From NCBI RefSeq assembly GCF_009664085.1, contig NZ_CP039268.1, positions 2,031,501 through 2,095,500 of the forward strand: a stretch of 64,000 nucleotides of DNA. Reading direction: 5' to 3'. Below are positions 4,387 through 29,090 of the stretch, one piece after another. Position numbers and translations under genes: made by a program. Within the stretch, counting starts at the first letter, position 1. Each line of letters begins with the position of its first letter. The DNA comes from Thermochromatium tepidum ATCC 43061. Lineage in GTDB: Bacteria; Pseudomonadota; Gammaproteobacteria; Chromatiales; Chromatiaceae. The notes under the pieces are model-generated. The model was not told the DNA's origin. It did not search any database and worked only from the letters and a program-made list of their open reading frames with translations.

Positions 4387-4401
4387 GACCCCTGTCCCGA
4401 T

Positions 4402-4719
4402 TCAGCCGTCGCTCGGCGGTCGATAGGTCGGATCCTTGGGATTGAGGAAGATGAAATGGAACTGCCCCGGCTCCAGCTCGACATAATCCATGACCGTCTG
4501 ATCGAGCAGCGGCACGTACTCGGGCGCGATCACGACATCTACGCCCTCGCTGGTCAGTCGGATGTCGTCCTCTGTAGGTTCGTCGAACCCCATGCGGTAG
4601 TCGATGCTCCCGTCTGGATTCCGTCCGGCGGCCAGACGCAGGCAAAGTCCCTCGGTGCCACCTTGCTTGGCCGCCTTGAAGACTTGGTCAGCGGCGGCGG
4701 GTGTCAGCTTGAACATCAT
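4402..4719 (-). CDS. dsrR: DsrR, A-type scaffold-like protein without cysteines
   Basis: A 105-residue protein with the IscA/A-type fold pattern (MMFKLTPAAADQVFKAA; later YVELEPGQFHFIFLNP) but lacking the three conserved cysteines that hold an iron-sulfur cluster in IscA. For A. vinosum DsrR a structural study and mutant data are known to me, with a proposed role in post-transcriptional control of dsr expression rather than cluster assembly. The start is set at the first of two adjacent ATGs because GAGAGGGGG lies just upstream; an ATG seven codons earlier lacks such a site. Confidence 0.93.
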   Translation of the reverse strand: MMFKLTPAAADQVFKAAKQGGTEGLCLRLAAGRNPDGSIDYRMGFDEPTEDDIRLTSEGVDVVIAPEYVPLLDQTVMDYVELEPGQFHFIFLNPKDPTYRPPSDG

Positions 4720-4788
4720 CAGCCCCCTCTCGAACCACATCCACCAGACATGGATCGAGTTTGAAATTGAACCCCAGGCCGCACGTGG

Positions 4789-6162: not shown

Positions 6163-6171
6163 GTTTGAACC

Positions 6172-6236
6172 TAGCTGTCAGCTTCCAGCCAGGATGCGGT
6201 TATTGCGAGAAGCCGATCGCTGGCAGGTGAAAGCTG
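6172..6236. repeat. REP-like stem-loop, copy A (dsrP-dsrN gap)
   Basis: About 65 bases sharing the pattern CAGCTTCCAGCC ... TTATTGC.GAAGC.GATCGCTGG ... AGCTGA with copies near 13251 and 17800. CAGCTT at the left pairs with AAGCTG at the right, so an imperfect hairpin can form. It fills the gap between the dsrP stop and the dsrN start, where it could act as an intercistronic mRNA element. Confidence 0.55.
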
Positions 6237-6240
6237 AAGA

Positions 6241-7491
6241 TCACGCCGGTTTGACAAGGACTGCCGCGTCAAGTGTCTCCTCGTCCGGCGCGACCACATC
6301 GTCGGCCAAGGACTCGGGCAAGAATTGCAGCACCCGCACCCCAACCGCCGTGATCAGGAGCGCCAAGGCCACGCCGCCCATGCCGAGCAGGATCTCGGGG
6401 ATGGTCGGCCAATAAGGGGCCGCCGCGCCCTTGACGCCATCGGCGAAGCCGGACTCCAGGATGGTGTGTCCGGGGAACATGGCCATCGGGAAGGCCTGGC
6501 TGCCGATGATCAGGACATACATAGCCGAGAAACCACCGACAATGACCAGGGCACAGGCAGCCATGATCCAGTCGCGCTTCTGACTCAACGCTGGATGATA
6601 AAGAATCCACATCGGCGCCAGACTGCCGACCAGGATCCAGCCAACCCAGAACAGGAAGGTGTAGATCCCGCCTTCGAGCAGCAGCCAGTGCTCCAGGCTG
6701 TCTTTCTTGGCCATGTAGAGGTTGGTCAGGTGATAGATCAGGGTGAAATAGAGCGCTACGGCGATGAAGAGCGCCAGCAGATTGCGCAACCGGCGCATCA
6801 TGCGCGGGCCGATCGGGCGCCCCTCCTCCTCGAAGCCGAACATGAGCACCAGCATGAACACGGCCAACCCATAAACCAGGGATAGGGCCACAAACATCGG
6901 ACCCAGGATCGCCGCGTCATAGGCCTGACGCGCGACCAGGAAGCCGAAGATCGAGCCTGTGCCTGTGGTCAGGGCCAGACGCCACACCAGCGCCAGAATA
7001 CCGATCGGATAGTTGAAGGGGCCGCCCTGACGATCGGCCATCGACCACAGATAGGCGATGACGATGGTCATGAAGCCGGTATAGAGAAAGATATTCCAGG
7101 CGAAGATCGAGCTGAAGTTATAGTGGGTCATGGCCACGATCAGACGCTCCGGGCGCCCGAGATCCATGACCAGCACCAGCAGACCGCCCATCAGCATGGC
7201 CACCGCCAACAGCCCCGAGAGCCGTCCGAGCGGTTTGTAGATGGGCTTTTTGAACACAGTGCCGATCGAGGCGATGTTGAGCACCCCCGAGGCGGCGATG
7301 ATCAGAAAGACCGCAAACACATGCGGCATCCCCCAGACCACCGAGTTGTTCATGCCGCTGACCCAGTGGCCTTCGTGTTCCATGTAACCGAATGAAAGCG
7401 CCGCGATCCCGAGCAGGGCCGCCAGGAAGCCCAGCAGACTCCAGTAACGCTCGGGCGGGATACGCCATTCACGATAGACGACTCGTTTCAT
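6241..7491 (-). CDS. dsrP: DsrP, NrfD-family integral membrane subunit of DsrMKJOP
   Basis: A 416-residue polytopic membrane protein of the NrfD/PsrC family with about ten hydrophobic segments. It is the quinone-interacting membrane anchor for the periplasmic DsrO/DsrJ part of the DsrMKJOP transmembrane complex, which moves electrons between cytoplasmic sulfur-trisulfide/DsrC chemistry and the quinone pool. It begins MKRVVYREWRIPPERYW before the first membrane segment (LLGFLAALLGIAALSFGY). The start has AGGGG about nine bases upstream. It lies 45 bp after dsrO. Confidence 0.96.
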   Translation of the reverse strand: MKRVVYREWRIPPERYWSLLGFLAALLGIAALSFGYMEHEGHWVSGMNNSVVWGMPHVFAVFLIIAASGVLNIASIGTVFKKPIYKPLGRLSGLLAVAMLMGGLLVLVMDLGRPERLIVAMTHYNFSSIFAWNIFLYTGFMTIVIAYLWSMADRQGGPFNYPIGILALVWRLALTTGTGSIFGFLVARQAYDAAILGPMFVALSLVYGLAVFMLVLMFGFEEEGRPIGPRMMRRLRNLLALFIAVALYFTLIYHLTNLYMAKKDSLEHWLLLEGGIYTFLFWVGWILVGSLAPMWILYHPALSQKRDWIMAACALVIVGGFSAMYVLIIGSQAFPMAMFPGHTILESGFADGVKGAAAPYWPTIPEILLGMGGVALALLITAVGVRVLQFLPESLADDVVAPDEETLDAAVLVKPA

Positions 7492-7536
7492 TTCGATAAG
7501 CCCCTGGCCTTGGTGCGCGAAGGCTGAAAGTTGGAC

Positions 7537-8313
7537 TCAGACGCCGGCGTAACGCACGCCGGTGTTCAGCATCAGATCCTCACGGATCTGCCGGCTTGGG
7601 ATCTCGCGCAGCCGTTGGTTGATGGTGCTGTCGGGATCCTTGAGATCACCAAAGAGGATGGCCCCATGCCCCTCGGCCGCACAGGCATCGACGCAGGCGG
7701 TCGATTCCTCGCCTTGGTCTCGCCTGTGCACGCATAGATTGCAGCCCTCGACACAGCCCTTACCGCGCGGCACGGCGGTCAGCTGTCCAGTCGTGTTTTG
7801 ATGGATGAAGCTGCGCGCCTTGTAGGGGCAGGCCATCATGCAATAGCGACAGCCGATGCACAGATGGCGATCGACCATGACGATGCCATCGGCGCGTTTG
7901 AAAGAGGCCCCGGTGGGGCAGACATCGACACAGGGCGGATGCTCGCAGTGCTGACACATCAGCGGCAACTGGGTGATGCGCCCGGTCTGATTGTCCTGGA
8001 GCTTGACCTTGCGGATCCAGACGGCCTTTTGATGTTCCCACTTGGACTCTGGGTGGCGCGGCTCCTGGAGATCCAGGCCATTCTCACGCTCGCAAGCCTC
8101 GACACAGGCTGAACAGCCGTCGGCGCACTTGGCGGTGTCGATCAACAGACCCCAGCGCACATCGTCCGTGACCGGCTCGGTGCGTGGCCCAGCAGCGAGG
8201 CTATGCAAAAAGACGCCCGGGGCCACCAGCGCGGCGGCGCTCACGCCGGCAGCGGTGCCGATAAAGCCGCGGCGGCGACTGTCGACAGACGTATGGGTTG
8301 TGTTCTCGTTCAT
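7537..8313 (-). CDS. dsrO: DsrO, Tat-exported ferredoxin-like iron-sulfur subunit
   Basis: A 258-residue periplasmic iron-sulfur protein. The N-terminus carries a twin-arginine signal (SRRRGFIGTAAGVSAAALV). Cysteine clusters follow for up to four [4Fe-4S] centres: CADGCSACVEACERENG, CQHCEHPPCVDVCPTGA, CIGCRYCMMACPYKA and CVEGCNLCVHR. It is of the HybA/NrfC type and relays electrons between triheme DsrJ and membrane DsrP. The start is preceded by GGAGGGC. It is separated by 3 bp from the dsrJ stop, so translation is probably coupled. Confidence 0.96.
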   Translation of the reverse strand: MNENTTHTSVDSRRRGFIGTAAGVSAAALVAPGVFLHSLAAGPRTEPVTDDVRWGLLIDTAKCADGCSACVEACERENGLDLQEPRHPESKWEHQKAVWIRKVKLQDNQTGRITQLPLMCQHCEHPPCVDVCPTGASFKRADGIVMVDRHLCIGCRYCMMACPYKARSFIHQNTTGQLTAVPRGKGCVEGCNLCVHRRDQGEESTACVDACAAEGHGAILFGDLKDPDSTINQRLREIPSRQIREDLMLNTGVRYAGV

Positions 8314-8316
8314 GGT

Positions 8317-8742
8317 TCAGTGCCCTCCCCCATGAGACGCACCCGTGAAACCGGGCCGATTGGGTACGGAGGCATGACAGTCGAAGCAGTCCAGATGCAC
8401 GGCCGCATAGCTGTGACAGGCGCCGCAGAACTGGTCCGGTTGATTGATCGGTCGCGGATTGCCGGCGGCATCATAACTGATATGACAGTCGATACAGCCA
8501 GCAAGGCTGTACTTGGTGCCCCGGATCCCCTGGTGGACCGTCTCGATGCGTTGATGCTTGATGAACTCCATGTGCATGCGGCGCATCCGCTCGGTCGGCT
8601 CGACGCAGGATTCGCGCTCGGCCGCCAGCGAACCCTCGACCACATAGCGCTTGAGCCCATCGGCGAGGGCGGTGTGGGCGACGCCTGTCCCCCACACCAG
8701 CCCAAGCACGACGAGACCAACTCTGACTACGGCCTTGGCCAT
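8317..8742 (-). CDS. dsrJ: DsrJ, triheme cytochrome c of DsrMKJOP
   Basis: A 141-residue exported cytochrome with an uncleaved-anchor-like or Sec N-terminus (VVRVGLVVLGLVWGTGVAHT) and three CXXCH haem sites: CIDCH, CGACH and CFDCH. The cysteine in ESCVEPTERM fits the unusual distal cysteine ligand (His/Cys haem) described for A. vinosum DsrJ. It is thought to handle sulfur substrate oxidation on the periplasmic side. The ATG was chosen because GGGAGG lies seven bases upstream and because it begins the signal segment; the open frame extends further upstream into dsrL without meaning. Confidence 0.95.
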   Translation of the reverse strand: MAKAVVRVGLVVLGLVWGTGVAHTALADGLKRYVVEGSLAAERESCVEPTERMRRMHMEFIKHQRIETVHQGIRGTKYSLAGCIDCHISYDAAGNPRPINQPDQFCGACHSYAAVHLDCFDCHASVPNRPGFTGASHGGGH

Positions 8743-8759
8743 CAACGCCTCCCTGGACC

Positions 8760-10724
8760 TCACTCGCCCAGCCCCATCTTGATGTAGCCGGTCGGACAGA
8801 CGTCGGCACAGATGTGACAGCCGATGCACTTGGCGTAGTCGGTGGCGACATAACGACCTGTGGTGCGCTCGGACCTGTCGACGCGATAGACGGCATCCTG
8901 CGGACAGAAGATGACGCAGTTGTCGCACTCGAAGCACAGACCGCAGCTCATACAGCGCTTGGCCTCCTCGATCGCCTCGACCTCGGTCAGACCGATGACA
9001 CGCTCATGGAAATGCCCGAGCACCTCATCGGCGCTCGGGACTTCTTCCTTGCGCCGGTAGCGCGGCACATAGTTGAAGTGTCCAAGGAAGAGCTCCTCGT
9101 GCGAGATGATCTCGGCGCCGGAGCGATCCTCGTAGTTGTGAACGGCCCAATTGCCCTCAGAGGTGCCGCGTAGATCACCGAACTTGGCGACATCGAAGGT
9201 CTCGGGCGCTCGGTTGACCTCGTTGAGCTTGTCGAGCAGGTTGAAGTGATGGACATCGACCTTGGGACGGCGCTTCGGCTCGGTCTGCATCACATAGGCG
9301 TCGATCGATTCGGCCGCGACCCAGGCCTGACCGATGGCCGTGGTCAGCAGGTGTGGGCGGATGATGTCGCCGGCAACGAAGTGACCCGGCTTGCCGGGCA
9401 CTTGATAGAACTTATCGGAATTCATCAAACCGCGCCCGTTGTCGAACTGCTCCAGACCCGAGAGGTCGCCGCCCTGCCCGATCGCCGAGACGATCAGGTC
9501 GGCCTCAAGCACGCGCTCTGTGCCCGCGACCGGGGTTGGGCGTCCATCGGTCATGATGCAGTCGGCGATCTTCAGCCCGGTGGCACGACCGTCGGCATCC
9601 TTGATGACCTCGATCGGCATCACACCATCGAGGATGGTCACGCCCTCGCGGGTCGCGTCCTCGACCTCGTGTTCGGCAGCGGTCATCTTGTCGCGCGGAA
9701 AGAGCGAGGTCAGGGTCACCTGGGCGCCCTGAGCCGCGGCCACCCGGGCCGAATCATGGGCCAGATAGCCGTCTCGGATGATGGCCTCGGGCAGCTCGTT
9801 CGGATTGGGATTGGTGATATGACCGAGACGACGCGCGACCGAGACCACGTCGATCGAGGTGTCACCGCCGCCGACACAGACGACCTTGCCGGCCGTGACC
9901 TTGAGTCGCCCCTCATTGAAGGCCTTGAGAAAGGCGACCCCCGTGACACAGTTGGGCGTGCCCTCCCAGCCCGGGACAGGCAGGCCGCGTCCGGTCTGAC
10001 AGCCGATGGCCCAGAGGATGGCATCGTAGTCCTTCTCCAACTGTTCGACCGAGACATCGCGGCCGATGCGCGTCTTGAGCCGGACCTCGATCCGGCCCAT
10101 GTCGAGGATGCGCTGGATCTCGGCGTCGAGCTTATCGCGCGGCACCCGATAGCCGGGGATGCCATAGCGAAACATGCCGCCCAGGGCCTCATTGGCCTCG
10201 AAGATGGTGCAGGAATGCCCCCGGCGACGCAGCTGATAAGCGGCGGCGAGCCCAGCCGGACCACCGCCGACGATGGCGATGCGCTTGCCGGTGTCGCGCT
10301 CGGGCGCCTCGAACCTGTAATTGTTGGCGATGGCAGTGTCACCAATGAACTGCTCGACCGCGTTGATGCCGACGAAGTCCTCCAGCTCGTTGCGGTTACA
10401 GCCGTCCTGGCAGGGGGCCGGGCAGACGCGCCCCATCATCGCCGGGAAGGGGTTGGCGTCGGTGGAGCGACGGAAGGCATACTCGCGCCAGTCCATCCCC
10501 CTCGGCGGCTGCTCCAGACCGCGCACGATCTGCAACCAACCGCGGATGTCCTCGCCCGAGGGACAGCTTGCTTGACAAGGCGGCGTCTTGTGGACATAGG
10601 TCGGACACTTGTGGGAGCGGTCCTGATTGAAGATCTTGTCGGTCAGTTTGTCCCAGACATTGTTGCCGTCCTCGAATCGACGCCAGGTTGGCTTCATCTT
10701 CATCTCGTCGCTGGAAGTCGCCAT
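8760..10724 (-). CDS. dsrL: DsrL, NAD(P)H:acceptor oxidoreductase iron-sulfur flavoprotein
   Basis: A 654-residue cytoplasmic flavoprotein like the small subunit of glutamate synthase. The N-terminal cysteine-rich domain has CQASCPSGEDIRGW and CPAPCQDGCNR; the FAD site is IAIVGGGPAGLAAAYQL and the NAD(P) site VVCVGGGDTSIDVV. A C-terminal two-cluster ferredoxin domain has CMSCGLCFECDNCVIFCP and CIGCHICADVCPTGY. In sulfur oxidisers DsrL is an essential partner of DsrAB that passes electrons to NAD+. I prefer the second ATG (MATSSDEMKM) because GGAG lies nine bases before it; the upstream ATG at 10739 has no such site. Confidence 0.95.
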   Translation of the reverse strand: MATSSDEMKMKPTWRRFEDGNNVWDKLTDKIFNQDRSHKCPTYVHKTPPCQASCPSGEDIRGWLQIVRGLEQPPRGMDWREYAFRRSTDANPFPAMMGRVCPAPCQDGCNRNELEDFVGINAVEQFIGDTAIANNYRFEAPERDTGKRIAIVGGGPAGLAAAYQLRRRGHSCTIFEANEALGGMFRYGIPGYRVPRDKLDAEIQRILDMGRIEVRLKTRIGRDVSVEQLEKDYDAILWAIGCQTGRGLPVPGWEGTPNCVTGVAFLKAFNEGRLKVTAGKVVCVGGGDTSIDVVSVARRLGHITNPNPNELPEAIIRDGYLAHDSARVAAAQGAQVTLTSLFPRDKMTAAEHEVEDATREGVTILDGVMPIEVIKDADGRATGLKIADCIMTDGRPTPVAGTERVLEADLIVSAIGQGGDLSGLEQFDNGRGLMNSDKFYQVPGKPGHFVAGDIIRPHLLTTAIGQAWVAAESIDAYVMQTEPKRRPKVDVHHFNLLDKLNEVNRAPETFDVAKFGDLRGTSEGNWAVHNYEDRSGAEIISHEELFLGHFNYVPRYRRKEEVPSADEVLGHFHERVIGLTEVEAIEEAKRCMSCGLCFECDNCVIFCPQDAVYRVDRSERTTGRYVATDYAKCIGCHICADVCPTGYIKMGLGE

Positions 10725-10797
10725 CTCAATCGTCTCCATACCAGTTAAACCCTGACGCGGGGATCAGGGGGTTTGTATCAGGTTGCGCTAGCCCCGG

Positions 10798-12378
10798 TCA
10801 GGCCGCCTCGTCTGTTTCTTCTTCGTTCGGATCGTCCAGGTCCGGCATATCGTCTTCGTCCTCGTCCTCATCTTCGTCGTCATCCGGCCCGGGTGTGAGC
10901 ACGATGGCGTTGGAGACGAGCTGATGGAGGCTGACGATCTGATCCATCTCCAGGCCGTAATAGGGCAGCACCTTGGTGAACTGACTTTTACAGATGGCGC
11001 AGATGGCGGCCATGTGCGTCACACCCTTCTCCTGCATCACGTTGTTGAGCGCGTCGAGTCGCGGCTTGGCGCCCTTGACGCGCAGTTCCATCAGATCATC
11101 GGTCAGAAGCCCACCACCGCCGCCACAACAGAAGGTGCGGTCGCGAATGGTCTCTTCGTCCATGTCGTAGAAGTGGTTGCAGGTCGCGCGGATGATGGCG
11201 CGCGGGATCTCAAACTGACCGCCCGGGGTGTCCCCCATGCGCGAGGCGCGCGCCACATTGCAGGAATCGTGGAAGGTCAGGACCTTCTCGTCGTTCTCGC
11301 TCTTGTCGAACTTGAGCCTTCCCTGCTGGATCAGGTCATAGGTGAACTCGCAGATGTGCTGCGGCACCGGATAGCGCGGGTCGAGGAAGTCCCAGGGACC
11401 GGCCAGGGTGTTGAGGAAGGAATAGGCCACACGCCAGGCATGACCGCACTCGCCGAAGACGATGCGCTTGACCTTGAGCTGGATGGCCGCCTCACGGATA
11501 CGCTGAGCCAGCCGACGCATGTTGGCATAGGAGCCGATGAACATGCCGAAGTTGGCCGCCTCGGAGGCATAGGAGCTCAGGGTCCAGGAGACACCGGCCT
11601 CGTGGAACACCTTGCCATAGCCGACCAGTCCATCGACATGCGGCTCGGCGAAGAAGTCGGCCGAGGGGGTCACGAGCAGGATCTCGGCGCCGACCTGATC
11701 GATGGGATACTTCACCCGCACGCCAGTGTTGTCATAGACGTCCTCTTCCAGACCTTCGAGGGTGTCCTTGAGCGCCGGCCCCGGCAGACCCAGATTGTTA
11801 CCGATCCTGTAGACCTTGCCGATGATCTCGTTGCAGTACTTCTGGCCCACGCCGATCGAGTCCATGATCTCGCGTGCGGCCATGGAGATCTCGGCGGTGT
11901 CGATGCCATAGGGACAGAACACCGAGCAGCGCCGGCACTGCGAGCACTGATGAAAGTAGCTATACCAGTCGTTGAGCACCTCCTCGGTGAGGTCCTCGGC
12001 CCCAACCAGCTTGGGAAACAGCTTGCCGGCCAGGGTAAAGTAACGCCGATAGACCTTGCGCATCAGGTCTTGACGTCCGACCGGCATGTTTTTCGGATCG
12101 CCGGTGCCGAGAAAATAATGGCACTTGTCGGTGCAGGCGCCGCACTTGACGCAGGCGTCCATGTAGACGCGCAGCGAGCGGTACTTGCCCAGTAGCTCGC
12201 CCATCTTGGCGATGGCCTTGGTCTGCCAATCCTCGACCAGCTCGCCAGGGAAGCCGAGCGGAATCTGAAATTCTTCGCGCGACTTAAAGGGGGCGCTATG
12301 CGCCATGGCCCCGGGCGTAACAGGCGGAACCTCAGTGTATTGGGTCAGGGCTGGGACTTCGAACGTTGCCTTGGCCAT
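10798..12378 (-). CDS. dsrK: DsrK, HdrD-like iron-sulfur catalytic subunit with acidic tail
   Basis: A 526-residue cytoplasmic subunit related to heterodisulfide reductase HdrD, which acts on the DsrC trisulfide. Two [4Fe-4S] motifs lie near residues 76 and 145 (CVKCGACTDKC, CSQCRRCSVFCPYG). The CCG-domain cysteines follow: CGHAWR, HDSCNVARASR, TFCCGGGGGL and CAICKSQF, which would hold the special catalytic cluster. The last 30 or so residues are almost all Asp, Glu and Pro (DDDEDEDEDEDDMPDLDD). AGAGG precedes the ATG. dsrM lies 49 bp upstream and dsrL follows after 73 bp. Confidence 0.96.
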   Translation of the reverse strand: MAKATFEVPALTQYTEVPPVTPGAMAHSAPFKSREEFQIPLGFPGELVEDWQTKAIAKMGELLGKYRSLRVYMDACVKCGACTDKCHYFLGTGDPKNMPVGRQDLMRKVYRRYFTLAGKLFPKLVGAEDLTEEVLNDWYSYFHQCSQCRRCSVFCPYGIDTAEISMAAREIMDSIGVGQKYCNEIIGKVYRIGNNLGLPGPALKDTLEGLEEDVYDNTGVRVKYPIDQVGAEILLVTPSADFFAEPHVDGLVGYGKVFHEAGVSWTLSSYASEAANFGMFIGSYANMRRLAQRIREAAIQLKVKRIVFGECGHAWRVAYSFLNTLAGPWDFLDPRYPVPQHICEFTYDLIQQGRLKFDKSENDEKVLTFHDSCNVARASRMGDTPGGQFEIPRAIIRATCNHFYDMDEETIRDRTFCCGGGGGLLTDDLMELRVKGAKPRLDALNNVMQEKGVTHMAAICAICKSQFTKVLPYYGLEMDQIVSLHQLVSNAIVLTPGPDDDEDEDEDEDDMPDLDDPNEEETDEAA

Positions 12379-12427
12379 GGATCAACCTCTATTGAAGGAG
12401 ACGACTGGGGCTCTTGAGTCATGGGGT

Positions 12428-13159
12428 TCATGACTGTTCGAGCTCCCTGGCCCAGGGTGCGATGTGACGCCTTTCGCGCGGGTTGTCGACCTGGTTGCGC
12501 GTCGGGCTGAAGAAGAGCCCGGGCGCATGTAGCAGCTTGCTGTAAGGGAAGATGATCATCAGCACAGCCACCAGAAACAGATGCAGCAAGAGCAGCGGAT
12601 CGGCCGGCAGTGGCTGGATGTTATAGCTGTAGAGCCCCTGGAAGAAGTGCTTGATCTCGACCACATCGACGTGAAAGGCGAACTTCATCAGCAGTCCGGT
12701 ACAGCCGATGGCCACCAGCAGCCCCAGGATCAGATGGTCCGAGGGCGCGGTGATGTACTTGACGCGATCGACCAGAAAGCGCCGCGCCCAGAGCCCGATC
12801 AACCCCAGGACCATGGCGATGCCACCATAGATGCCAAACGGCTGGATGAGCTGGATCGGGAACCACACCGGCTCGATGAAATAGCGCAGATGACGCAAGG
12901 TGACGAGGAAGAGACCGAAATGGAACATCCAACCGAAGATCCAGGTCCACTTGTTGCCGCGAAACAGGCTCTCGAACAGGACGACCTCACGCATCATCCT
13001 GAAGACGACACCCGTGCGTGTCGTCGGCGCCGGGGTGGTCGGGATCTTCAGCGGCGCGGGGGTGCGGGCATACTGAATGATCTTGCGAGCCAGGCCGGCC
13101 ACGAGCACAAAGGCGGCGAAATAGAACAGGAAGGCATAGAAGCTCGTCAGAAACGCCAT
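12428..13159 (-). CDS. dsrM: DsrM, NarI-like cytochrome b membrane subunit
   Basis: A 243-residue membrane protein with five or six hydrophobic segments, related to the gamma subunit of nitrate reductase (NarI) and binding haem b. It carries quinone/quinol chemistry and pairs with DsrK in the DsrMKJOP complex. Histidines in FHFGLFLVTLRHLRYF and in LHLFLVAVLMI are placed to ligate haems. GAGGGTG stands upstream of the ATG. A hairpin-forming repeat fills the 160-bp gap from dsrC, dividing the highly expressed upstream genes from the membrane-complex genes. Confidence 0.95.
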   Translation of the reverse strand: MAFLTSFYAFLFYFAAFVLVAGLARKIIQYARTPAPLKIPTTPAPTTRTGVVFRMMREVVLFESLFRGNKWTWIFGWMFHFGLFLVTLRHLRYFIEPVWFPIQLIQPFGIYGGIAMVLGLIGLWARRFLVDRVKYITAPSDHLILGLLVAIGCTGLLMKFAFHVDVVEIKHFFQGLYSYNIQPLPADPLLLLHLFLVAVLMIIFPYSKLLHAPGLFFSPTRNQVDNPRERRHIAPWARELEQS

Positions 13160-13250
13160 GTTTCCGCACCCTCGGTAGAACTTGATGGGATCCGGCGCGT
13201 CGGCAGTTCAAGTAAACCGCGCGCCGACCGCTCGTAAGCGGCCAGCTTTC

Positions 13251-13309
13251 AGCCGCCAGCTTCCAGCCAGAGGGCCTTTATTGCTGGAAGCTGCTGGAGA
13301 CTGGCGGCT
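13251..13309. repeat. REP-like nested stem-loop, copy B (dsrC-dsrM gap)
   Basis: AGCCGCCAG (13251-13259) pairs with CTGGCGGCT (13301-13309), and GCTTCCAGC (13259-13267) pairs with GCTGGAAGC (13283-13291), giving a long nested hairpin. It shares its core (TTATTGCTGGAAGC) with copies at 6172 and 17800. Its place just 3' of dsrC suggests a 3'-end stabiliser or attenuator for the dsrABEFHC part of the transcript; this role is inferred. Confidence 0.7.
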
Positions 13310-13319
13310 AAGGCTTTCT

Positions 13320-13658
13320 TTAGACGCAGCCGGTCGGCTTGGGCAGGCCGGCGAAGCGGCACGCCTGCTTGGCTGGGCCATAGGGGAAGAGGCCATAAAG
13401 ATACTTGCTGTTGCCCTTGTCTTTGCCGAGCTTCTTACCGACGGCCTTGGTCAGGACCCGCACGGCGGGAGCGATCTGATACTCCTCGTAGTACTCGCGC
13501 AGGAAGTTGATGATGTCCCAGTGCTCATCGGTCAGCTCCAGGTTGTCCTGCTTGGCCATGACCCGGGCGACCTCTGGCTCCCAATCGTTGAGGTTGACCA
13601 GATAGCCTTCTTCATCCACGGGTAATTGCTTGCCATTGACCTCGATGGTATCCGCCAT
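13320..13658 (-). CDS. dsrC: DsrC, sulfur-carrier substrate protein
   Basis: A 112-residue DsrC/TusE protein. The C-terminal arm has both conserved cysteines spaced C-x10-C with the second penultimate (ACRFAGLPKPTGCV), so this is a true DsrC able to form the trisulfide that DsrAB and DsrK process, not merely a TusE. It takes sulfur from DsrEFH and gives it to sulfite reductase. The ATG has GAGGAGC upstream. dsrH lies 53 bp before it. Confidence 0.97.
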   Translation of the reverse strand: MADTIEVNGKQLPVDEEGYLVNLNDWEPEVARVMAKQDNLELTDEHWDIINFLREYYEEYQIAPAVRVLTKAVGKKLGKDKGNSKYLYGLFPYGPAKQACRFAGLPKPTGCV

Positions 13659-13711
13659 TGGGGATGCTCCTCTATCTTGAGTTCGTATCTGAGTTCGTTT
13701 CAGTTAAAAAC

Positions 13712-14020
13712 TTACAACCAGGCCTGGACCTTGTCACACTCGGCCGCCAGATCGACGAAACCGGCATAGTCCAGGATCCTGATCCCTGGGATGACGCGCT
13801 CGTCACTAAACCCCCGTGCCTTGAGATCGGGGCCGAGCACGTACAGCTTGAGCTTGCCGAGCGCCGCGGTCACCTGGGACTCGATGCTGGTCCCCGCCAG
13901 CGCGGCATAGACACCGTCCTCAAACAACAGGACACTCGCGCCCTCGGCGGCAAACTTCAGGCAGGATTCTAGCGAATTGCGCTCGAAGGGTGACTTGTTG
14001 ACGGTATGCAGAATGCTCAT
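13712..14020 (-). CDS. dsrH: DsrH, sulfurtransferase complex subunit (TusB-like)
   Basis: A 102-residue member of the DsrE/TusD superfamily; begins MSILHTVNKSPFERNSLESC, where the cysteine is the conserved one near residue 20. It forms the alpha2beta2gamma2 DsrEFH hexamer that relays persulfide sulfur to DsrC. The gene follows dsrF after 10 bp. Confidence 0.95.
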   Translation of the reverse strand: MSILHTVNKSPFERNSLESCLKFAAEGASVLLFEDGVYAALAGTSIESQVTAALGKLKLYVLGPDLKARGFSDERVIPGIRILDYAGFVDLAAECDKVQAWL

Positions 14021-14030
14021 TTCACCCCCC

Positions 14031-14441
14031 TTAGAAGCTGAAGATCACATCGGACTCGTTCATCAGTGCGCTCACGCGGGCTGAATCGATGACCTCGACG
14101 ATATTGTCGATCTCCTCCTCGGTCTCCGGGTCTTCGAAGGGGATCTCGATCAGGTCGTCTGGGGTCAGTCCGCGCGCCTCCAGCGAGTCGCGATCGACAT
14201 AGACGCGCCGCACCTCGTAGTCGCCCAGGGTGCGATAGGTCGGGGAGAAGTTCTTCATCCCGATGCCCTTGGTGTCCTGGCCCTTGGTGAGCTGATAGAC
14301 ACCATCGTCGATGAACATGACACATACGTCCTGATCGAAGGCAGCACCAATGAGCACGACCTCCAGCGCCTCCCAGGCGTAGATGGTGCCGTAGGGGGCC
14401 TTGCGATTGAGGTACATGAATTTCTTCACGACTTCCGACAT
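14031..14441 (-). CDS. dsrF: DsrF, sulfurtransferase complex subunit (TusC-like)
   Basis: A 136-residue DsrE-superfamily protein: MSEVVKKFMYLNRKAPYGT then VVLIGAAFDQDVCVMFIDDG. It is the structural partner in the DsrEFH hexamer. The chosen ATG matches the family N-terminus and is 13 bp from the dsrE stop; an earlier start would run through dsrE in another frame. Confidence 0.95.
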   Translation of the reverse strand: MSEVVKKFMYLNRKAPYGTIYAWEALEVVLIGAAFDQDVCVMFIDDGVYQLTKGQDTKGIGMKNFSPTYRTLGDYEVRRVYVDRDSLEARGLTPDDLIEIPFEDPETEEEIDNIVEVIDSARVSALMNESDVIFSF

Positions 14442-14454
14442 GATGGCGCTCCCT

Positions 14455-14847
14455 TCAGTCACCGAAGACGACGAGACGGTCGGCCTGGATCGCCGCCTCG
14501 ACCAATTGTCCGAGCCCGGAGATGCGGAATCTGGGATGGATGTTGGTCGCGTCCTTGCCGTTGCGGGCCATCTCGCCCTCATCGACGATCCCGCGCCGTT
14601 GCGCGGCGGCGACACAGACGACCATATCTAGATCGTATCGCTCGGCCAGCTCCGCCCAGCGGTTGACGATATGACGATCATCCTGTGGCGGCGTGGTCAG
14701 ACGGGTCGAGTTGTTGACACCATCGTGATAGAAAAAGACCCGGAAGATCTCATGACCCTTCTCCAGCGCGGCCTTGGCGAAGTGATAGGCCGAGTCGGAC
14801 GCCTGATGCTGATACGGCCCCTCGTTGATCTGAAGCGCAAACTTCAT
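14455..14847 (-). CDS. dsrE: DsrE, persulfide-carrying sulfurtransferase subunit (TusD-like)
   Basis: A 130-residue protein beginning MKFALQINEGPYQHQASDSA. The active cysteine is in DMVVCVAAAQRRG (near residue 78), the residue that binds sulfur in A. vinosum DsrE. It hands sulfur to DsrC within DsrEFH. A strong hairpin lies in the 96-bp gap from dsrB. Confidence 0.96.
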   Translation of the reverse strand: MKFALQINEGPYQHQASDSAYHFAKAALEKGHEIFRVFFYHDGVNNSTRLTTPPQDDRHIVNRWAELAERYDLDMVVCVAAAQRRGIVDEGEMARNGKDATNIHPRFRISGLGQLVEAAIQADRLVVFGD

Positions 14848-14897
14848 GTAGACCTCGGAATAGAGTTTTCAGTGCCCAGTCGAGCAACCGCCCTGAA

Positions 14898-14927
14898 AGC
14901 CCTTCCCCTTTAGCGGGGGAAGGGGCT
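14898..14927. other. Intercistronic hairpin between dsrB and dsrE
   Basis: AGCCCTTCCCC pairs with GGGGAAGGGGCT around a seven-base loop, with one bulged G: an 11-bp G+C-rich stem. There is no following U-run on the dsr strand, so it looks like an mRNA-processing or attenuating structure rather than a full terminator. The rest of the operon clearly continues. Confidence 0.6.
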
Positions 14928-14943
14928 GACTGTTGCCTGAGTG

Positions 14944-16014
14944 TCAGAACCGAATGTAAGACGAGCTGTTGAAGCTCGCGCGCGCACCGCGCCAGGTATC
15001 GATGTGATACTTGGTGAAGGGCAGCTCGACCTCCTCGAAGAAGCGCGGCCAGCCGATGCGCTCGATCCACTCATTGATGCGCTCCCAGTCCTTCGCACCT
15101 TCCTTGTAGGCCTTGAGGATGCGCTTGACGATGGCCGTGGCCTCGGGCCAACGCGGCGGATTATTGGGGATGCCTGCAGCGACCAACTTCTGGAAGGTCG
15201 GTTTGCCACGCGCATTGGAGTGGTTGCCACCAACCCAGATCGCGAGCTTGGTGTGTTCGGGATCGTTGATCTGCATCGGCGGACAGGGCGGATAGCAGGC
15301 GCCGCAGCAGATGCACTTGCGCTCATCGACCTCCAGCGACGGCTTGCCGTTGACCAATGCCGGGCGGATGGCGGCCACCGGACAGCGCGCCACGACCGCA
15401 GGCCGTTCGCAGACATTGGCCACCAGATCATGGTTGATCTTCGGCGGCTTGGTGTGCTGGACATTGATCGCGATGTCGCCCTGACCGCCGCAGTTGATCT
15501 GGCAGCAGGAGGTGGTGATGTGCACCCGGTTGGGCATGCGGGCGTTGCGGAACTCGTCGATGAGCTCGTCCATCATCGCCTTGACCACACCCGAGGCGTC
15601 GGTGCCTGGGATGTCGCAGTGCAGCCAGCCCTGGGTGTGCGAGATCATGGCCACCGAGTTCTGGGTGCCGCCGACCACGAATCCGGCCGCCTCCAGGGCA
15701 TCGATCAACGGTTGGACCTTAGACTCGTCGCTCACCAGATACTCGATGTTCGAGCGGATGGTGAAGTGGACATAGCCTTCGGCAAACTCATCACCGATGT
15801 CGCACAGCTTGCGCAGGGTGAAGACATCGAGGATGCGCTGGGTGCCGGCCTTGACCGTCCAGATCTTGTCGCCGCTGTAGGCCACATGCAGCAGCACACC
15901 CGGACGCGGATGCTCATGGTACTTCCACATGCCGAAATTCTTGCGCATCACCGGATGCATATACTGCCAGGGGTCCGGACAGCCGGACTCGATGGGCTCA
16001 CGCATTTCCGCCAT
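14944..16014 (-). CDS. dsrB: Reverse dissimilatory sulfite reductase, beta subunit
   Basis: A 356-residue beta subunit of the siro(ha)amide sulfite reductase that in phototrophic sulfur oxidisers works in the oxidative direction. Cysteine motifs TSCCQINCGG and, in the inserted ferredoxin domain, CICCGACYPPCPPM are present. The start MAEMREPIESGCPDPWQY is the conserved DsrB N-terminus; the open frame extends 38 codons upstream into dsrA's end without family resemblance. dsrA lies 55 bp upstream. Confidence 0.97.
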   Translation of the reverse strand: MAEMREPIESGCPDPWQYMHPVMRKNFGMWKYHEHPRPGVLLHVAYSGDKIWTVKAGTQRILDVFTLRKLCDIGDEFAEGYVHFTIRSNIEYLVSDESKVQPLIDALEAAGFVVGGTQNSVAMISHTQGWLHCDIPGTDASGVVKAMMDELIDEFRNARMPNRVHITTSCCQINCGGQGDIAINVQHTKPPKINHDLVANVCERPAVVARCPVAAIRPALVNGKPSLEVDERKCICCGACYPPCPPMQINDPEHTKLAIWVGGNHSNARGKPTFQKLVAAGIPNNPPRWPEATAIVKRILKAYKEGAKDWERINEWIERIGWPRFFEEVELPFTKYHIDTWRGARASFNSSSYIRF

Positions 16015-16069
16015 GGACTGATCCTCCAGTGTTTCGATTCTTGGGAATGAGGCTGCGATCGATGCCGCT

Positions 16070-17323
16070 TCAGCGCCCGGCCTCGGCCCGACGCGCAAAC
16101 CACTCCTCGGCCGCCTGATCCCAGCCATCCATACGGACGTAGGAGCTCTGACGTGGGTGGCTCAACATGTTCGGATCCGGATCGATGCCAATACCCTCCA
16201 GGAAGTTGGCCAGGCCGATGCGCTCGATCATCTCGCCGCAGCGCTCGTGCTCCAGGCCGTTCTCGGCCCAAAAATCGATGATGGTCTCGGCCAGCTCGAC
16301 CAGGGAGTCGTAATCTTCTTCGGTCTCCAGCTTTTTGAAGGGCACGATCACGGTACCCATGAGATCGCCGATCTTGAGGGTGCGCTTGCCGCCGATCAGG
16401 ATGGTCACACCCTTGTCGTCGCCGGGATGCAGCGCCTTGGGCATGACATTCAGACAGTGCATACAGCGCACACAGTCGCGGTTGTTGACGGTCAGGGTGT
16501 CGTCATCGTTGAGCGACAGGGCCTTGGTCGGGCAGCGGGTGATGACATTGTCGATGTAGTACTGCCGCCCCTTCTCGGCGATGTAGGCCTTGACCTCGGC
16601 CTGATCGACCTTCATGTCGTCGCGCCAGGTGCCAAGAATGGCAAAGTCCGAACGCTCGATGGCGTTCTGGCAGTCGTTGGGACAGCCTGAGATCTTGAAT
16701 TTGAACTTGTAAGGCAGCGCCGGGCGATGCACGTCATCGACGAAGTTGTTGACCAGCCTCCGATGGGCCTTGAGCTCATTGGTGCAAGACATCTCGCAGC
16801 GCGCTGCCCCGACGCAGGACATGGCAGTGCGCACGCAGGGACCGGCGCCGCCCAGGTCCCAGCCATAGGAGTTGATCTCGTCAAAGAAGGGCTGGGTGTT
16901 CTCGGTGGTGGCGCCAATGAACATGATGTTGCCGGTCTGACCGTGGAAGGTGATCAGGCCCGAACCGTACTTCTCCCAGCTATCGGCCAACTGGCGCAGC
17001 ATGGCGGTGGTGTAGTGGTTGCCCGCCGGCGGCTGGACGCGCAGGGTATGGAATTCCTTAGAGGCCGGGAACACCTTCCCGACCTCGGAGAAGCGCGGGA
17101 TGATGCCGCCGCCGTAACCGTACACCGATACGGTGCCCCCCTTCCAATAGCCCTTGCGGGTCTCATAGGAGTGTTCGAGCTGACCGAGCAGATCGTTGTT
17201 TACGGCATTGATGCGCGGGTCCGGATGCTGGTCGCGCAGACGCTTGATACCGGAGATGAAGCTAGGCCAGGGACCGGTCTCGAGCTGGTCGAGCATCGGG
17301 GTGGCGTGCTTGTCGATAGCCAT
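16070..17323 (-). CDS. dsrA: Reverse dissimilatory sulfite reductase, alpha subunit
   Basis: A 417-residue alpha subunit. Siroheme/[4Fe-4S] ligands are CVGAARCEMSC and ISGCPNDCQ; the ferredoxin insertion has CVRCMHCLNVMPKAL. With DsrB it oxidises DsrC-bound or free sulfane sulfur to sulfite in the cytoplasm, the core step of stored-sulfur oxidation. The direction is inferred from the accompanying dsrEFH and dsrL, which mark sulfur oxidisers. TAGGAGAG precedes the ATG, the best ribosome site in the operon, as expected for its first gene. Confidence 0.98.
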   Translation of the reverse strand: MAIDKHATPMLDQLETGPWPSFISGIKRLRDQHPDPRINAVNNDLLGQLEHSYETRKGYWKGGTVSVYGYGGGIIPRFSEVGKVFPASKEFHTLRVQPPAGNHYTTAMLRQLADSWEKYGSGLITFHGQTGNIMFIGATTENTQPFFDEINSYGWDLGGAGPCVRTAMSCVGAARCEMSCTNELKAHRRLVNNFVDDVHRPALPYKFKFKISGCPNDCQNAIERSDFAILGTWRDDMKVDQAEVKAYIAEKGRQYYIDNVITRCPTKALSLNDDDTLTVNNRDCVRCMHCLNVMPKALHPGDDKGVTILIGGKRTLKIGDLMGTVIVPFKKLETEEDYDSLVELAETIIDFWAENGLEHERCGEMIERIGLANFLEGIGIDPDPNMLSHPRQSSYVRMDGWDQAAEEWFARRAEAGR

Positions 17324-17538: not shown

Positions 17539-17799
17539 CGATCGGGGGAGATAGGCCCTCAGACCTCTATCCCCTTCGAGATATCCACTGGCGCCTGGCG
17601 TCCGCCTCGAACGCCATCCGCTTTGGCGACTGGCTTTGCAAAGAGCCTACAGGTCGGCCCACCACTCAGTCAATAAACTCTAATATTAACGCTTTCTAAA
17701 TCTCAACCGCCCATCGGGCCGATTCGGACCTGGGTATCTTGTTTCGGCGGTCAGGGCATGGTTGTTTTCGGTTTCGCGTGCCTGCACATTCTTCAGAAG

Positions 17800-17877
17800 C
17801 CTTTGGCTTTCAGCCGAACGCTTCCGGGCAAAGCGCCTTCATTGCTGGAAGCAGATCGCTGGAGGCTGACGGCTGAC
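17800..17877. repeat. REP-like stem-loop, copy C
   Basis: Third copy of the family seen at 6172 and 13251, sharing GCTTTCAGCCG, CGCTTCC, CTTCATTGCTGGAAGC and GATCGCTGGAGGCTGACGGCTGA. TTCAGCCG pairs with CGGCTGA and GCTTCC with GGAAGC. It lies between the divergent dsrA and the small gene at 17945. Confidence 0.55.
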
Positions 17878-17944: not shown

Positions 17945-18136
17945 ATGCTCAGGCTTAGTGAAATCCTGGTTGCCAACCAAGACATCGAATCCTTCGACGA
18001 ACTCATCCCCCTCGTCCAGGCCGTGGCACGTTCCGGCGAGCGGTTTTTCCGCATGGACGTCAAGCCACCCTATCCGGACACACCGGAGAACTGGGAAGAC
18101 CGACTCGAGGCCGCCTTCAGCGGCCTGCTGCGCTGA
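17945..18136 (+). CDS. Small acidic protein of unknown function
   Basis: A 63-residue, acidic, soluble protein (MLRLSEILVANQDIESFDEL ...). I do not recognise it. The frame can also start at a TTG at 17924; neither start has a clear ribosome site, and I took the ATG. It is followed after 35 bp by a second unknown gene and then a Cas6-like gene on the same strand, so the three probably form one unit divergent from dsr. Codon use looks like that of its neighbours, which supports a real gene. Confidence 0.6.
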   Translation: MLRLSEILVANQDIESFDELIPLVQAVARSGERFFRMDVKPPYPDTPENWEDRLEAAFSGLLR

Positions 18137-18171
18137 ATTCCATCTTAACGACCAGCAGAGTTTTTCCGGAC

Positions 18172-18897
18172 ATGAACACCATGAAGTCATTCGACCCCCT
18201 GACCATCCGCCTGCCGGATACCGCCGCTGATTCCGTCTTCAACGCCGGCAGTGAGTTTGCGGCATTGGAGTCGCATCTTCAGGTGCTCAAGGAGCGGCTC
18301 GCGGCCATTGAGCACAGCAGTGGTTCGGCGCATGAACTGGCCGATTTGCGCTTGCAGGTCGCGCGCACCCTGGTCGGTCTAGAACGCGGCGCCGAGGCCT
18401 GGCCGCTGGCACGCGCGGCCTTTGATCACTTCATCGAATGGGATCAATTCGAGTCCGCCGCCGATGCCTGCGACGTGCTGTTCCAGGCCGATCAGCCCGG
18501 CTCGGTCGCCGCGCTCGGTCAGGGGATCTGGCTGGCCGTCACCTGTCCCATCGATCCCGAGTTGACCATCGAGCTGCTCAAGCATGTGATCGACGAGACC
18601 CCGGACGACGCCGACGGCGCGGCGGTGGCAGCGACCACGGCGCTGTTCCTGGCCGATGTGCGTGCCCAGGGGCGTCATCGCGAGGACCTGATGTTCTTCG
18701 CCACCCAGTTGCTCGGCACGGTGGCGCGCCGGCATAGCCGGGTCGAGACCCCTGAGCAACTGGATCGCTGGATGGATCGGTTGGAGCTGAAAGAACCCGA
18801 GAAGTTCCTCGTGCGACTGCGCAATATCGTCGATGTGCTGGTCCAGGACGACTGGTGGTTTGACCGCGAGGCGCTCCAGCGACGTCTGCCCTATTGA
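18172..18897 (+). CDS. Helical protein of unknown function, upstream of Cas6-like gene
   Basis: A 241-residue soluble, acidic protein with repeated Ala/Leu-rich helices (for example ADLRLQVARTLVGLERGAEA and DACDVLFQADQPGSVAALGQ) that suggest a TPR-like helical repeat scaffold; this is a visual impression, not a domain hit. No signal peptide, membrane segment or catalytic motif is visible. It lies 36 bp before the Cas6-like gene. A helical repeat protein paired with an RNA endonuclease could serve as a binding or regulatory partner; that is inference. Confidence 0.75.
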   Translation: MNTMKSFDPLTIRLPDTAADSVFNAGSEFAALESHLQVLKERLAAIEHSSGSAHELADLRLQVARTLVGLERGAEAWPLARAAFDHFIEWDQFESAADACDVLFQADQPGSVAALGQGIWLAVTCPIDPELTIELLKHVIDETPDDADGAAVAATTALFLADVRAQGRHREDLMFFATQLLGTVARRHSRVETPEQLDRWMDRLELKEPEKFLVRLRNIVDVLVQDDWWFDREALQRRLPY

Positions 18898-18933
18898 TCC
18901 ATCACCCGCCCCCTTAAGGATTCCAGCCGACCA

Positions 18934-19635
18934 ATGTTCTGGAACGAAGACGACCCGACCGAAGCCCCGCTGCTGGACGACATCGTCGATCTGCTCTTTA
19001 CCATCGACTGCAAGTGTCTACCAGTCGATCATGCCTACGCGCTGTCAAGCGCTCTGCGCGCCTTGGTGCCCTGGTTCGACGAGGAGCCGCATCTTGGCGT
19101 GCACACGATCCATGTCGCCGGATCCCAGAATGGCTGGGAGCGGCCCGAGCACTCGCCTGAGGCGCTGATCATGGTCTCGCGCCGCACCAAGCTGAGGATT
19201 CGCGTCCCCAGCGCGCGGGCGGACGATCTGGTCGCGCGGCTCCAGGGTCAGCGCATCGAGGTCGGGGGTCAGCCCTTGACGATCGGCGCGGCCAAGCCAA
19301 GGCCACTGAGCCAGGAGACGACGATCTTCACCCGTTATCTGGCGGCGGATTCGAGCGGCGATGCCGAGGCGTTCGCCAACGAGTCGCGTTTTCTCGAGGC
19401 CGCCGCGCGTGCGCTCGGTGCGCTCGACATCCGCATGCGCAAGGCCCTCTGCGGTAAGACCACATCCCTGTATACGCCTGCCGGCCCAATCCATACCCGT
19501 GCCCTCATGCTCGCCGGATTGACGCGCGAAGAGTCGATGCGGCTCCAGCGCGAAGGGCTGGGACCGTATCGCACGCTCGGCTGTGGGCTCTTTATCCCGC
19601 ACAAGGGCATCGACCCAGTCAGGCCTCCAACCTGA
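18934..19635 (+). CDS. Cas6-like CRISPR-RNA endoribonuclease (Cmx6/MYXAN type), orphan
   Basis: A 233-residue protein resembling the Cas6/Cmx6 family of the type I 'MYXAN' systems: N-terminal LLFTIDCKCLPVDHAYALSS and PWFDEEPHLGVHTIHVAGSQ, then SRRTKLRIRVPSARADDL, and the C-terminal glycine-rich loop LGPYRTLGCGLFIPHKGID that in Cas6 proteins contacts the RNA repeat hairpin. Candidate catalytic histidines are in GVHTIHVAG. Cas6 cuts pre-crRNA at the base of a repeat stem-loop. No CRISPR array, Cascade, cas1/2 or cas3 gene is present in this window. Family assignment is from remembered motif pattern; RNA substrate is unknown. Confidence 0.8.
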   Translation: MFWNEDDPTEAPLLDDIVDLLFTIDCKCLPVDHAYALSSALRALVPWFDEEPHLGVHTIHVAGSQNGWERPEHSPEALIMVSRRTKLRIRVPSARADDLVARLQGQRIEVGGQPLTIGAAKPRPLSQETTIFTRYLAADSSGDAEAFANESRFLEAAARALGALDIRMRKALCGKTTSLYTPAGPIHTRALMLAGLTREESMRLQREGLGPYRTLGCGLFIPHKGIDPVRPPT

Positions 19636-28271: not shown

Positions 28272-29090
28272 GGTCTCGATCCGTACCGCATAGACCCCGC
28301 CGATGACCAGATGCTCACCCTCGCCTCTGAGTACCCCGGGCAAGAGCTCGGCATGGAAGAAGACCTTGGCGGATGGGATCGAGGCGCTCAGGATATAGTC
28401 CCCAAACTCCCCTGCCCGTTCGCGGCTCGTGGTAAAGGAATTGATGTTGTTCAACAGGACCACCTGCTCCTTGCCGCGCGCGCTGAGCACCTCGTGTCCA
28501 TCGAGCCGATTGACCCCGCGATACAGGACGACCTGCCCTTCTTGCAGACCGGCGCGAGCATATTCGTACTGGCAATAGGTATAGAGCAGATCGAGTTGCG
28601 ACTCCAAGGCATTGGTGCCAGAGAGCCCCGCCGCGCGCATGGCCTCATAGCGTCGCCAGGCATGGCCAGTGAAATCGCGTAAGGGTTCGCCATGAAAACG
28701 GGGTACCAAACCGAAACGCGACTCGACCCAACCCTTGAGCACCGCCCCCTCGCGACTGTCGGCATCGAAATGCCAACCGCGTAGGACCCGCAACCAATTG
28801 GCCTTGGCCCGCCGACCCTTGCCCCTCTCTAGTCCCGCCTCCTCTAAACGCCCCAGACAAAAATGGGCCTCCAGGGCAGCCGCGAAGGCGTGCGCCCGCG
28901 CCGCTCGATCCTCCAAGGCATCGAGCCACTCAAAGAGCCCAAGATGGAGCTCGCGCACGCCATCAAGCTGCAGGGTGCTCGGGTGGCGCTGAAAGCTGAG
29001 CCCGCCCAGGATCACTGCTGGCAGGTTGCAGCGATTGATCGGCAGCCGCGCCCAGGCGGGGAGCGAAGGTTCAGGTGTCTTGTCGGACAT
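28266..29090 (-). CDS. draT: NAD+-dinitrogenase-reductase ADP-D-ribosyltransferase
   Basis: A 274-residue DraT that transfers ADP-ribose from NAD+ to a single arginine of NifH, switching nitrogenase off on ammonium or darkness. Conserved blocks INRCNLPAVILGGLSFQRHP, VLYRGVNRLDGHEV and LLNNINSFTTSRERAGEFGD are typical. AAGGAGCTCTGTCGC precedes the ATG. The NifA box of nifH (29081-29096) overlaps its start codon, and a TATATT-like -10 lies about 45 bases upstream on the minus strand. Confidence 0.95.
   Translation of the reverse strand: MSDKTPEPSLPAWARLPINRCNLPAVILGGLSFQRHPSTLQLDGVRELHLGLFEWLDALEDRAARAHAFAAALEAHFCLGRLEEAGLERGKGRRAKANWLRVLRGWHFDADSREGAVLKGWVESRFGLVPRFHGEPLRDFTGHAWRRYEAMRAAGLSGTNALESQLDLLYTYCQYEYARAGLQEGQVVLYRGVNRLDGHEVLSARGKEQVVLLNNINSFTTSRERAGEFGDYILSASIPSAKVFFHAELLPGVLRGEGEHLVIGGVYAVRIETL

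Follow-up and report, generated by a model that had tools for sequence, protein, structure and literature searches.

Cas6 is the crRNA-processing enzyme of CRISPR (clustered regularly interspaced short palindromic repeats; crRNA, CRISPR RNA). Here we describe a cas6 gene that stands beside the dsr operon in a 64,000-nucleotide stretch of the genome of Thermochromatium tepidum ATCC 43061 (contig NZ_CP039268.1, positions 2,031,501 to 2,095,500), hereafter the window. Together with two partner genes, encoding p63 and p241, it forms a module that is divergent to dsrA, the first gene of the operon. The dsr-side Cas6 proteins form a distinct clade that accompanies the dsr operon in Gammaproteobacteria (in the GTDB sense throughout), and the gene is no stray leftover of CRISPR: it is present in many genomes without the markers Cas1 and RAMP (repeat-associated mysterious protein). 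The strongest evidence is the module's distribution, which follows that of dsr throughout the class. We propose, at about an even chance of being right, that the enzyme is an endoribonuclease dedicated to dsr, specific for a hairpin or a sequence, which was recruited from CRISPR and sets dsr expression; the step from the conserved Cas6 to its RNA is one that we infer.

The three open reading frames (ORFs) lie where a preliminary description of the window had placed them (Table 1), with gaps of 35 nt between p63 and p241 and 36 nt between p241 and cas6. That description had recognized a Cas6/Cmx6 pattern in the third product, and the family and fold checks agree: the protein scores 217 bits against PF09559 (cut-off 26.7, E = 2.2e-64) and 117 bits against TIGR02807 (Cas6/Cmx6; cut-off 98.9). 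An AlphaFold2 (AF2) model made from 65 sequences (predicted local distance difference test, pLDDT, 91) has as its top Foldseek match the Cas6 of a type I-B CRISPR-associated transposon (CAST), with a template modelling (TM) score of 0.71–0.72; other Cas6 structures come next, and rows 1–39 are all Cas6 or other CRISPR-complex proteins. The protein is a true Cas6, with a modelled double ferredoxin-like fold. The C-terminal glycine loop, also pointed out earlier, is kept almost without change among the 128 dsr-side Cas6 sequences collected (for 113 of them the stretch also shows dsrA with no less than 150 bp of its upstream sequence): G210 and G216 are present in 128/128 and G208 in 127/128. R84 and R90 are likewise found in all 128. 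There are two candidate catalytic histidines, H33 (126/128) and H57 (124/128). PADLOC recognized only Cas6 in the module, with no family for p63 or p241, and a search for phage carriers of this Cas6 gave zero matches among 50,697 records. A further gene, of the DsrC family (the DsrC paralogue), lies 3′ of cas6 in 109 of the 128 loci according to our own profile, one of them having been tested as PF04358; it is absent at this site in the T. tepidum window.

Table 1. Positions of the module, the dsr operon and associated elements (window coordinates unless a locus is named)
Feature	Position	Strand	Basis or remark
dsr-side Cas6 (233 aa)	18934-19635	+	PF09559, TIGR02807, AF2, Foldseek; clade of 128 with NGWxRP insert
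p241 (241 aa), predicted all-helical, TPR-like	18172-18897	+	AF2; weak PDB matches
p63 (63 aa), consensus ..FFRIDVKPPFPDTPENWEDRLEAAF	17945-18136	+	first gene of the module; in 114/128 Cas6 loci
Palindrome (C/A)TATCCC-N4-GGGATAG	17567-17584	.	244-261 bp upstream of dsrA start; 1 mismatch to consensus
dsrA, first gene of the divergent dsr operon	16070-17323	-	TIGR02064, E 5.7e-203
Remaining dsr operon, dsrB-E-F-H-C-M-K-L-J-O-P-N-R-S	3289-16069	-	order as in Allochromatium vinosum (PMC3368242) and homology to syntenic loci
dsrC-dsrM hairpin, CCGGCG...CGCCGG type, candidate substrate	13192-13228	-	fold; equivalents in close relatives by inspection
GCTGGAAGCTG repeat hairpin (13251 in the preliminary description)	13243-13293	-	over-represented; in 1/11 aligned relatives
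DsrC paralogue, example	L250:2620-2961		

How closely does Cas6 follow dsr? In a class sample of 276 Gammaproteobacteria genomes (requested completeness at least 90%), dsrA was found in 90 and Cas6 in 92; both occur in 87, dsrA only in 3, Cas6 only in 5 and neither in 181. The 87 genomes span 51 family-level groups by hand count, and a Fisher p-value for this table ignores relatedness. In 65 of the 87 the two genes are 0.7–4.5 kb apart, all 65 pairs being divergent, and in 21 they lie on different contigs; in one complete genome (G208) Cas6 is 41 kb from dsrA. The three dsrA-only genomes (G209, G221 and G299) have just 0.2–1.9 kb of contig upstream of dsrA, so that the absence of Cas6 may be assembly loss, and in one of the five Cas6-only genomes (G225) Cas6, p63 and the DsrC paralogue are located where a contig ends. 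A family sample of 116 genomes contains Cas6 in 104, Cas1 in 77 and dsrA above the cut-off in 94. Hand comparison showed that 11 of the 12 genomes lacking Cas6 also lack dsrA above the cut-off, the exception being G039; 11 Cas6-positive genomes are likewise without dsrA above the cut-off, several of them showing partial dsrA in fragmented assemblies. A phylum sample of 328 genomes has dsrA in 37, that is, T. tepidum, 4 others in the class and 32 outside it. All of the four further class genomes carry Cas6, 0.4–0.6 kb from dsrA (by hand), and the DsrC paralogue; p63 and p241 were not found in them by the profiles used.

Individual loci give the same picture. Of 40 family loci (the window and 39 chosen by hand among Cas6-positive genomes), 37 show dsrA in the fetched stretch, as do 57 of the 64 Cas6 loci among 80 named loci, which are the best 80 of 122 by p241 similarity. 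Since several loci stem from identical or near-identical genomes that entered through two fetches (L082 and L168, for example), locus counts are not independent. The pairwise distances of the three module proteins track those of DsrA beyond what DsrK, DsrL, DsrM and DsrE account for (47 loci; partial r 0.63 for p241, 0.40 for p63 and 0.42 for Cas6; reached in 0/300 permutations each). That an old CRISPR remnant has come to lie beside dsr by chance and hitchhikes neutrally has nothing in its favor beyond linkage, and is hardly credible in view of the 87 of 90 dsrA-positive class genomes in so many groups, the retention of Cas6 in four genomes of 1.0–1.1 Mb and at the distant site in G208, and the conservation of active-site residues and partner genes.

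The dsr-side Cas6 is also set apart by its sequence. A FastTree split with support of 0.994 parts the 128 sequences without error from 13 comparison copies, a small set consisting of 6 second copies from Chromatiaceae and 7 from cyanobacterial plasmids; for this tree the over-long ORFs L270 and L271 were trimmed by 100 N-terminal residues and columns with more than half gaps were removed. An array lies in the same 20 kb stretch at 4 of the 6 Chromatiaceae second copies, with none seen at the other 2, and 6 of the 7 plasmid copies adjoin cas3. On a Gloeobacter plasmid (L275) a Cas6/Cmx6 gene is found among hypothetical, PAPS-reductase-like and cupin genes, with no cas3 in the stretch shown. An inserted AxSxNGWxRP motif marks the dsr-side clade, its W68 and P71 columns being empty in 13/13 comparison copies. 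The type I-B CAST Cas6 (PDB 8fcj/8fcu) and Cas6/Cmx6 share the double ferredoxin-like fold, the C-terminal glycine loop and an N-terminal motif of DH type, which reads DN in the CAST enzyme, with the modelled protein. The dsr-side Cas6 is distinguished by the insert, the near-invariant H57, the position divergent from dsrA and the lack of adjacent cas genes or array, none of which was seen. Pyrococcus furiosus Cas6 (PDB 3i4h, 3pkm) is alike in fold (TM about 0.53) at a low identity of 10–12%; its substrate is CRISPR repeat RNA, unlike the role proposed here. By motif position, H57 is presumably placed like the catalytic histidine of that enzyme.

An RNA-binding regulator derived from Cas6, or a ribonucleoprotein scaffold formed with p241, could instead control dsr expression with no need of cutting. 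This would fit the invariance of R84, R90, G210 and G216 alongside the loss of H57 or H33 in 5 of 128 sequences, and also the nature of the partners, which resemble scaffold and DsrC-fold proteins rather than nucleases. However, both histidines are retained in 123/128, and H57 is far stricter than in the comparison copies, which have it in 2/13 (H33 in 13/13), pointing to a catalytic or structural need. We consider this alternative rather unlikely, although it is the strongest of those weighed here.

The preliminary description had called this Cas6 an orphan without CRISPR. For the window this is correct, as no array-like repeat (a 20-mer in at least three copies at 50–90 nt spacing) was found there, but it does not extend to the complete 2.96 Mb genome, in which there is one PF09559 match. 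A 565-aa Cas1 and a Csx16-like (Cas_VVA1548) gene are present near 0.746 Mb (L092:9785-12891). Near 1.10 Mb, about 0.94 Mb from the window, there is a type III-A locus with genes for Cas10, Csm2, a RAMP and a PF10040 Cas6 of its own. Could the dsr-side enzyme then act in trans as the crRNA processor for arrays elsewhere in the genome? Its family membership and these two loci speak for such a function, as does a Cas1 match, some weak, in 109 of 184 Cas6-positive genomes (80 of the 89 eligible from the class and 104 from the family). On the other hand, the type III-A locus seemingly does not need the dsr-side Cas6 for crRNA processing, since it has its own. Nor was any array that the dsr-side enzyme might serve seen through marker genes or in the 52 kb around the type III-A locus, where no 24-mer occurs in at least three copies. 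Cas1 is absent in 42/80 class and 33/104 family genomes (hand comparison), 75/184 in all, and in 69 of these 75 the PF03787 RAMPs are absent too, type I effectors and arrays not having been searched genome-wide; the 69 include all 11 single-contig genomes, and also four genomes of 1.0–1.1 Mb. Moreover, the position and presence of Cas6 track dsrA. Processing of crRNA in trans is therefore very improbable. The dsr-side Cas6 has neither of two marks of such a processor, an adjacent array or cas operon and an occurrence only together with CRISPR-Cas, as judged from Cas1 and RAMPs. The earlier suggestion of an orphan RNase with a cellular role is well supported by the Cas6 fold, the conserved neighbors and the occurrence where Cas1 and RAMPs are absent. 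As minor observations, a 59–60 nt tandem repeat with a TAGGAGCGGC..GCCGCGA palindrome adjoins the Cas1/Csx16-like pair, and the type III-A locus (L273) also carries a Uma2-like gene and an APE2256 gene.

The partner genes are conserved across genomes, as had been expected: the order p63-p241-Cas6 occurs in 38 of the 40 family loci, L108 lacking p241 and L109 both partners. p241 had been described as helical, in agreement with an AF2 model (pLDDT 92) that takes the form of an all-helical solenoid; its PDB matches are weak, the best having an E of 0.014, and are mostly TPR domains; Pfam gave no family above the cut-off. It is present in 101/116 family genomes and in 69/276 class genomes, all 69 being Cas6-positive. 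In 15 of the 80 named loci p241 occurs without Cas6, p63 or dsrA in the stretch, so it is not always a member of the module; no neighbor is common to more than 3 of these 15 loci. p63 matches no Pfam, NCBIfam or PADLOC family above the cut-off, and was found in 55 of the 57 named loci that have both Cas6 and dsrA, loci that had been chosen through p241. Some non-Chromatiaceae loci have a gene for a TauD-like dioxygenase 5′ of p63 (L250:3908-4777, L233:3945-4925). Outside the class, p63 is kept in 4 of 5 full dsr operons from which Cas6 is absent, and is thus wider in the dsr setting than Cas6; in such operons it adjoins TauD-like and CysG-like genes (by Pfam in L233, by eye in L232 and L234). 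The CysG-like siroheme synthase of L233 is 3′ of p63.

The DsrC paralogue belongs to the DsrC/TusE family (PF04358) and differs from it in its GGY end (108/109) and a near-universal absence of cysteine (none in the last 25 residues in 107/109), whereas DsrC proper has two cysteines in the last 14 residues in 108/108. It resembles a protein that we take to be the one called RspA in a review. DsrEFH and DsrC are related to TusBCD and TusE of tRNA thiolation, and Cas6 might accordingly act on a general cellular RNA, such as tRNA, in a sulfur-relay process. The frequency of a DsrC-family gene 3′ of cas6, beyond which a TusA-type gene (at one locus) and a rhodanese gene (at another) are found, is in line with this idea. 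It is nevertheless improbable, because a paralogue with a cysteine-less C-terminus should not carry sulfur as DsrC and TusE do, and because the presence of Cas6 tracks dsr, not general translation.

If the RNA is instead that of dsr, where would it be cut? The preliminary description had named hairpins within the dsr transcript as possible targets. Compared with shuffled sequences, the dsrA-dsrB (median z −2.06, n = 99) and dsrC-dsrM (−2.38, n = 96) junctions of Cas6 loci fold better, while five other dsr junctions are near zero; dsrP-dsrN is also low, with n = 12. Medians are weaker in Cas6-less loci (dsrA-dsrB −0.73, n = 15; dsrC-dsrM −1.55, n = 7), which leans toward the hairpins as targets; most of these 15 loci are dsrAB loci of different make-up. 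At the dsrC-dsrM junction of the window, the copy of the GCTGGAAGCTG repeat at 13251 is common to 1/11 aligned relatives by inspection, and a second hairpin, at about 13192-13228, has equivalents in close relatives. No Rfam family was found in the window at gathering scores. As a common target of Cas6 the dsr hairpins had to be given up: they are real, but junction folding, Cas6-less controls, similarity within genomes and group alignments revealed no link to Cas6.

A conserved element, the palindrome upstream of dsrA, is a new observation. Of 128 loci, 95 have it with a score of at least 11/14, where shuffled sequences would give about 2. The median distance between its start and that of dsrA is 231 bp; its distance from p63 is widely variable. 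Among the 113 loci with Cas6 it is found in 94, and among the 15 without Cas6 in the stretch only in L245, whose genome has Cas6 elsewhere; the four further class genomes from the phylum sample score below 11. In 2.78 Mb, 85 of 89 near-perfect palindromes are at most 700 bp upstream of dsrA, and the remaining 4 are in loci where dsrA was not mapped in that scan. We examined it as a Cas6 RNA hairpin and rejected it, compensatory base-pair changes being no better than in shuffles: for 89 of the 95 elements (87 distinct), pairing is 88.8% against 88.3% when shuffled (91/500 as high), and covariation gave 53/500. The palindrome therefore looks like a DNA operator rather than an RNA hairpin, and is likely to be the site of a two-fold-symmetric DNA-binding protein, some dsr regulator.

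The mechanism that we propose is as follows. The recruited Cas6 would bind and cut RNA, most likely the dsr mRNA itself, and so set the expression of dsr genes; p241 would serve as its scaffold, and regulatory input would come from p63 or the DsrC paralogue. In A. vinosum the dsrEFH and dsrC transcripts are reported to exceed that of dsrA despite co-transcription (PMC3397948; PMC3368242), and cutting by Cas6 might help to explain this. Such an enzyme would resemble RNase E or RNase III in cutting a polycistronic mRNA at structured sites, and would differ from them in being dedicated to one operon. The fold of these RNases is unrelated to that of Cas6. More speculatively, this Cas6 clade may have left CRISPR to become a metabolic operon's own processing enzyme, and with p63, the TPR-like p241 and the sulfur-blind DsrC may constitute an RNA-level switch that senses the sulfur state and cuts the dsr transcript (or another) in about 50 families of sulfur-oxidizing Gammaproteobacteria, strongly reduced genomes included; we offer this larger picture tentatively, as possible but on balance somewhat doubtful.

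Several points weigh against a Cas6 that cuts dsr mRNA. PF09559 was found in 0 of the 32 dsrA-positive genomes outside the class. Of these, 14 loci were mapped, 9 showing nothing beyond dsrA, dsrB and a DsrL-like match and thus of different make-up, and 5 with the full operon (dsrE, H, C, M, K and L); these five show that rdsr can exist without Cas6. Hairpins are present in the five as well (z −1.6 to −4.2 at dsrA-dsrB and −0.2 to −3.5 at dsrC-dsrM), and within a genome the hairpins of the two junctions are scarcely more alike (8.9) than a control (8.4; p = 0.057, n = 96). The palindrome, the one cis element that is conserved, behaves like a DNA operator and so gives no pointer to Cas6. H57 is absent in 4 of the 128 sequences and H33 in 2 (one lacks both) with the gene retained, so cutting is perhaps not required everywhere. 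dsrC is reported to have a promoter of its own (PMC3368242), which explains part of the transcript imbalance. Joint transfer of neighbors could yield the same distance correlation, and the frequent Cas1 matches mentioned above add to these points.

The conserved dsr-side Cas6 nevertheless points to a previously undescribed RNA-level role in sulfur metabolism. If the proposal is true, metabolism would here have clearly co-opted a Cas endoribonuclease, and a sulfur pathway of global importance would be tied to control at the RNA level. The proposal also offers a concrete and testable answer to the excess of dsrEFH and dsrC transcripts over dsrA in a co-transcribed operon. In the accessible part of the open-licence literature we found no link between Cas6 and dsr, which does not prove its absence, and the publications naming both, as far as their accessible text goes, mention Cas6 in CRISPR contexts. 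As this Cas6 exceeds the cut-off of the CRISPR-named TIGR02807, CRISPR may be over-called in sulfur bacteria.

Two minor remarks concern the window. Within the dsr operon the curated family test covered dsrA alone, the other names following from gene order and homology. The GCTGGAAGCTG element is over-represented, with 7 matches (at most one mismatch) against 1.8 expected; both of the hairpins noted earlier at 6172 and 13251 contain it, the former at 6179-6189, and in addition to these copies, the second of which spans 13243-13293, it is found at 17844-17868 and 28988-28998.

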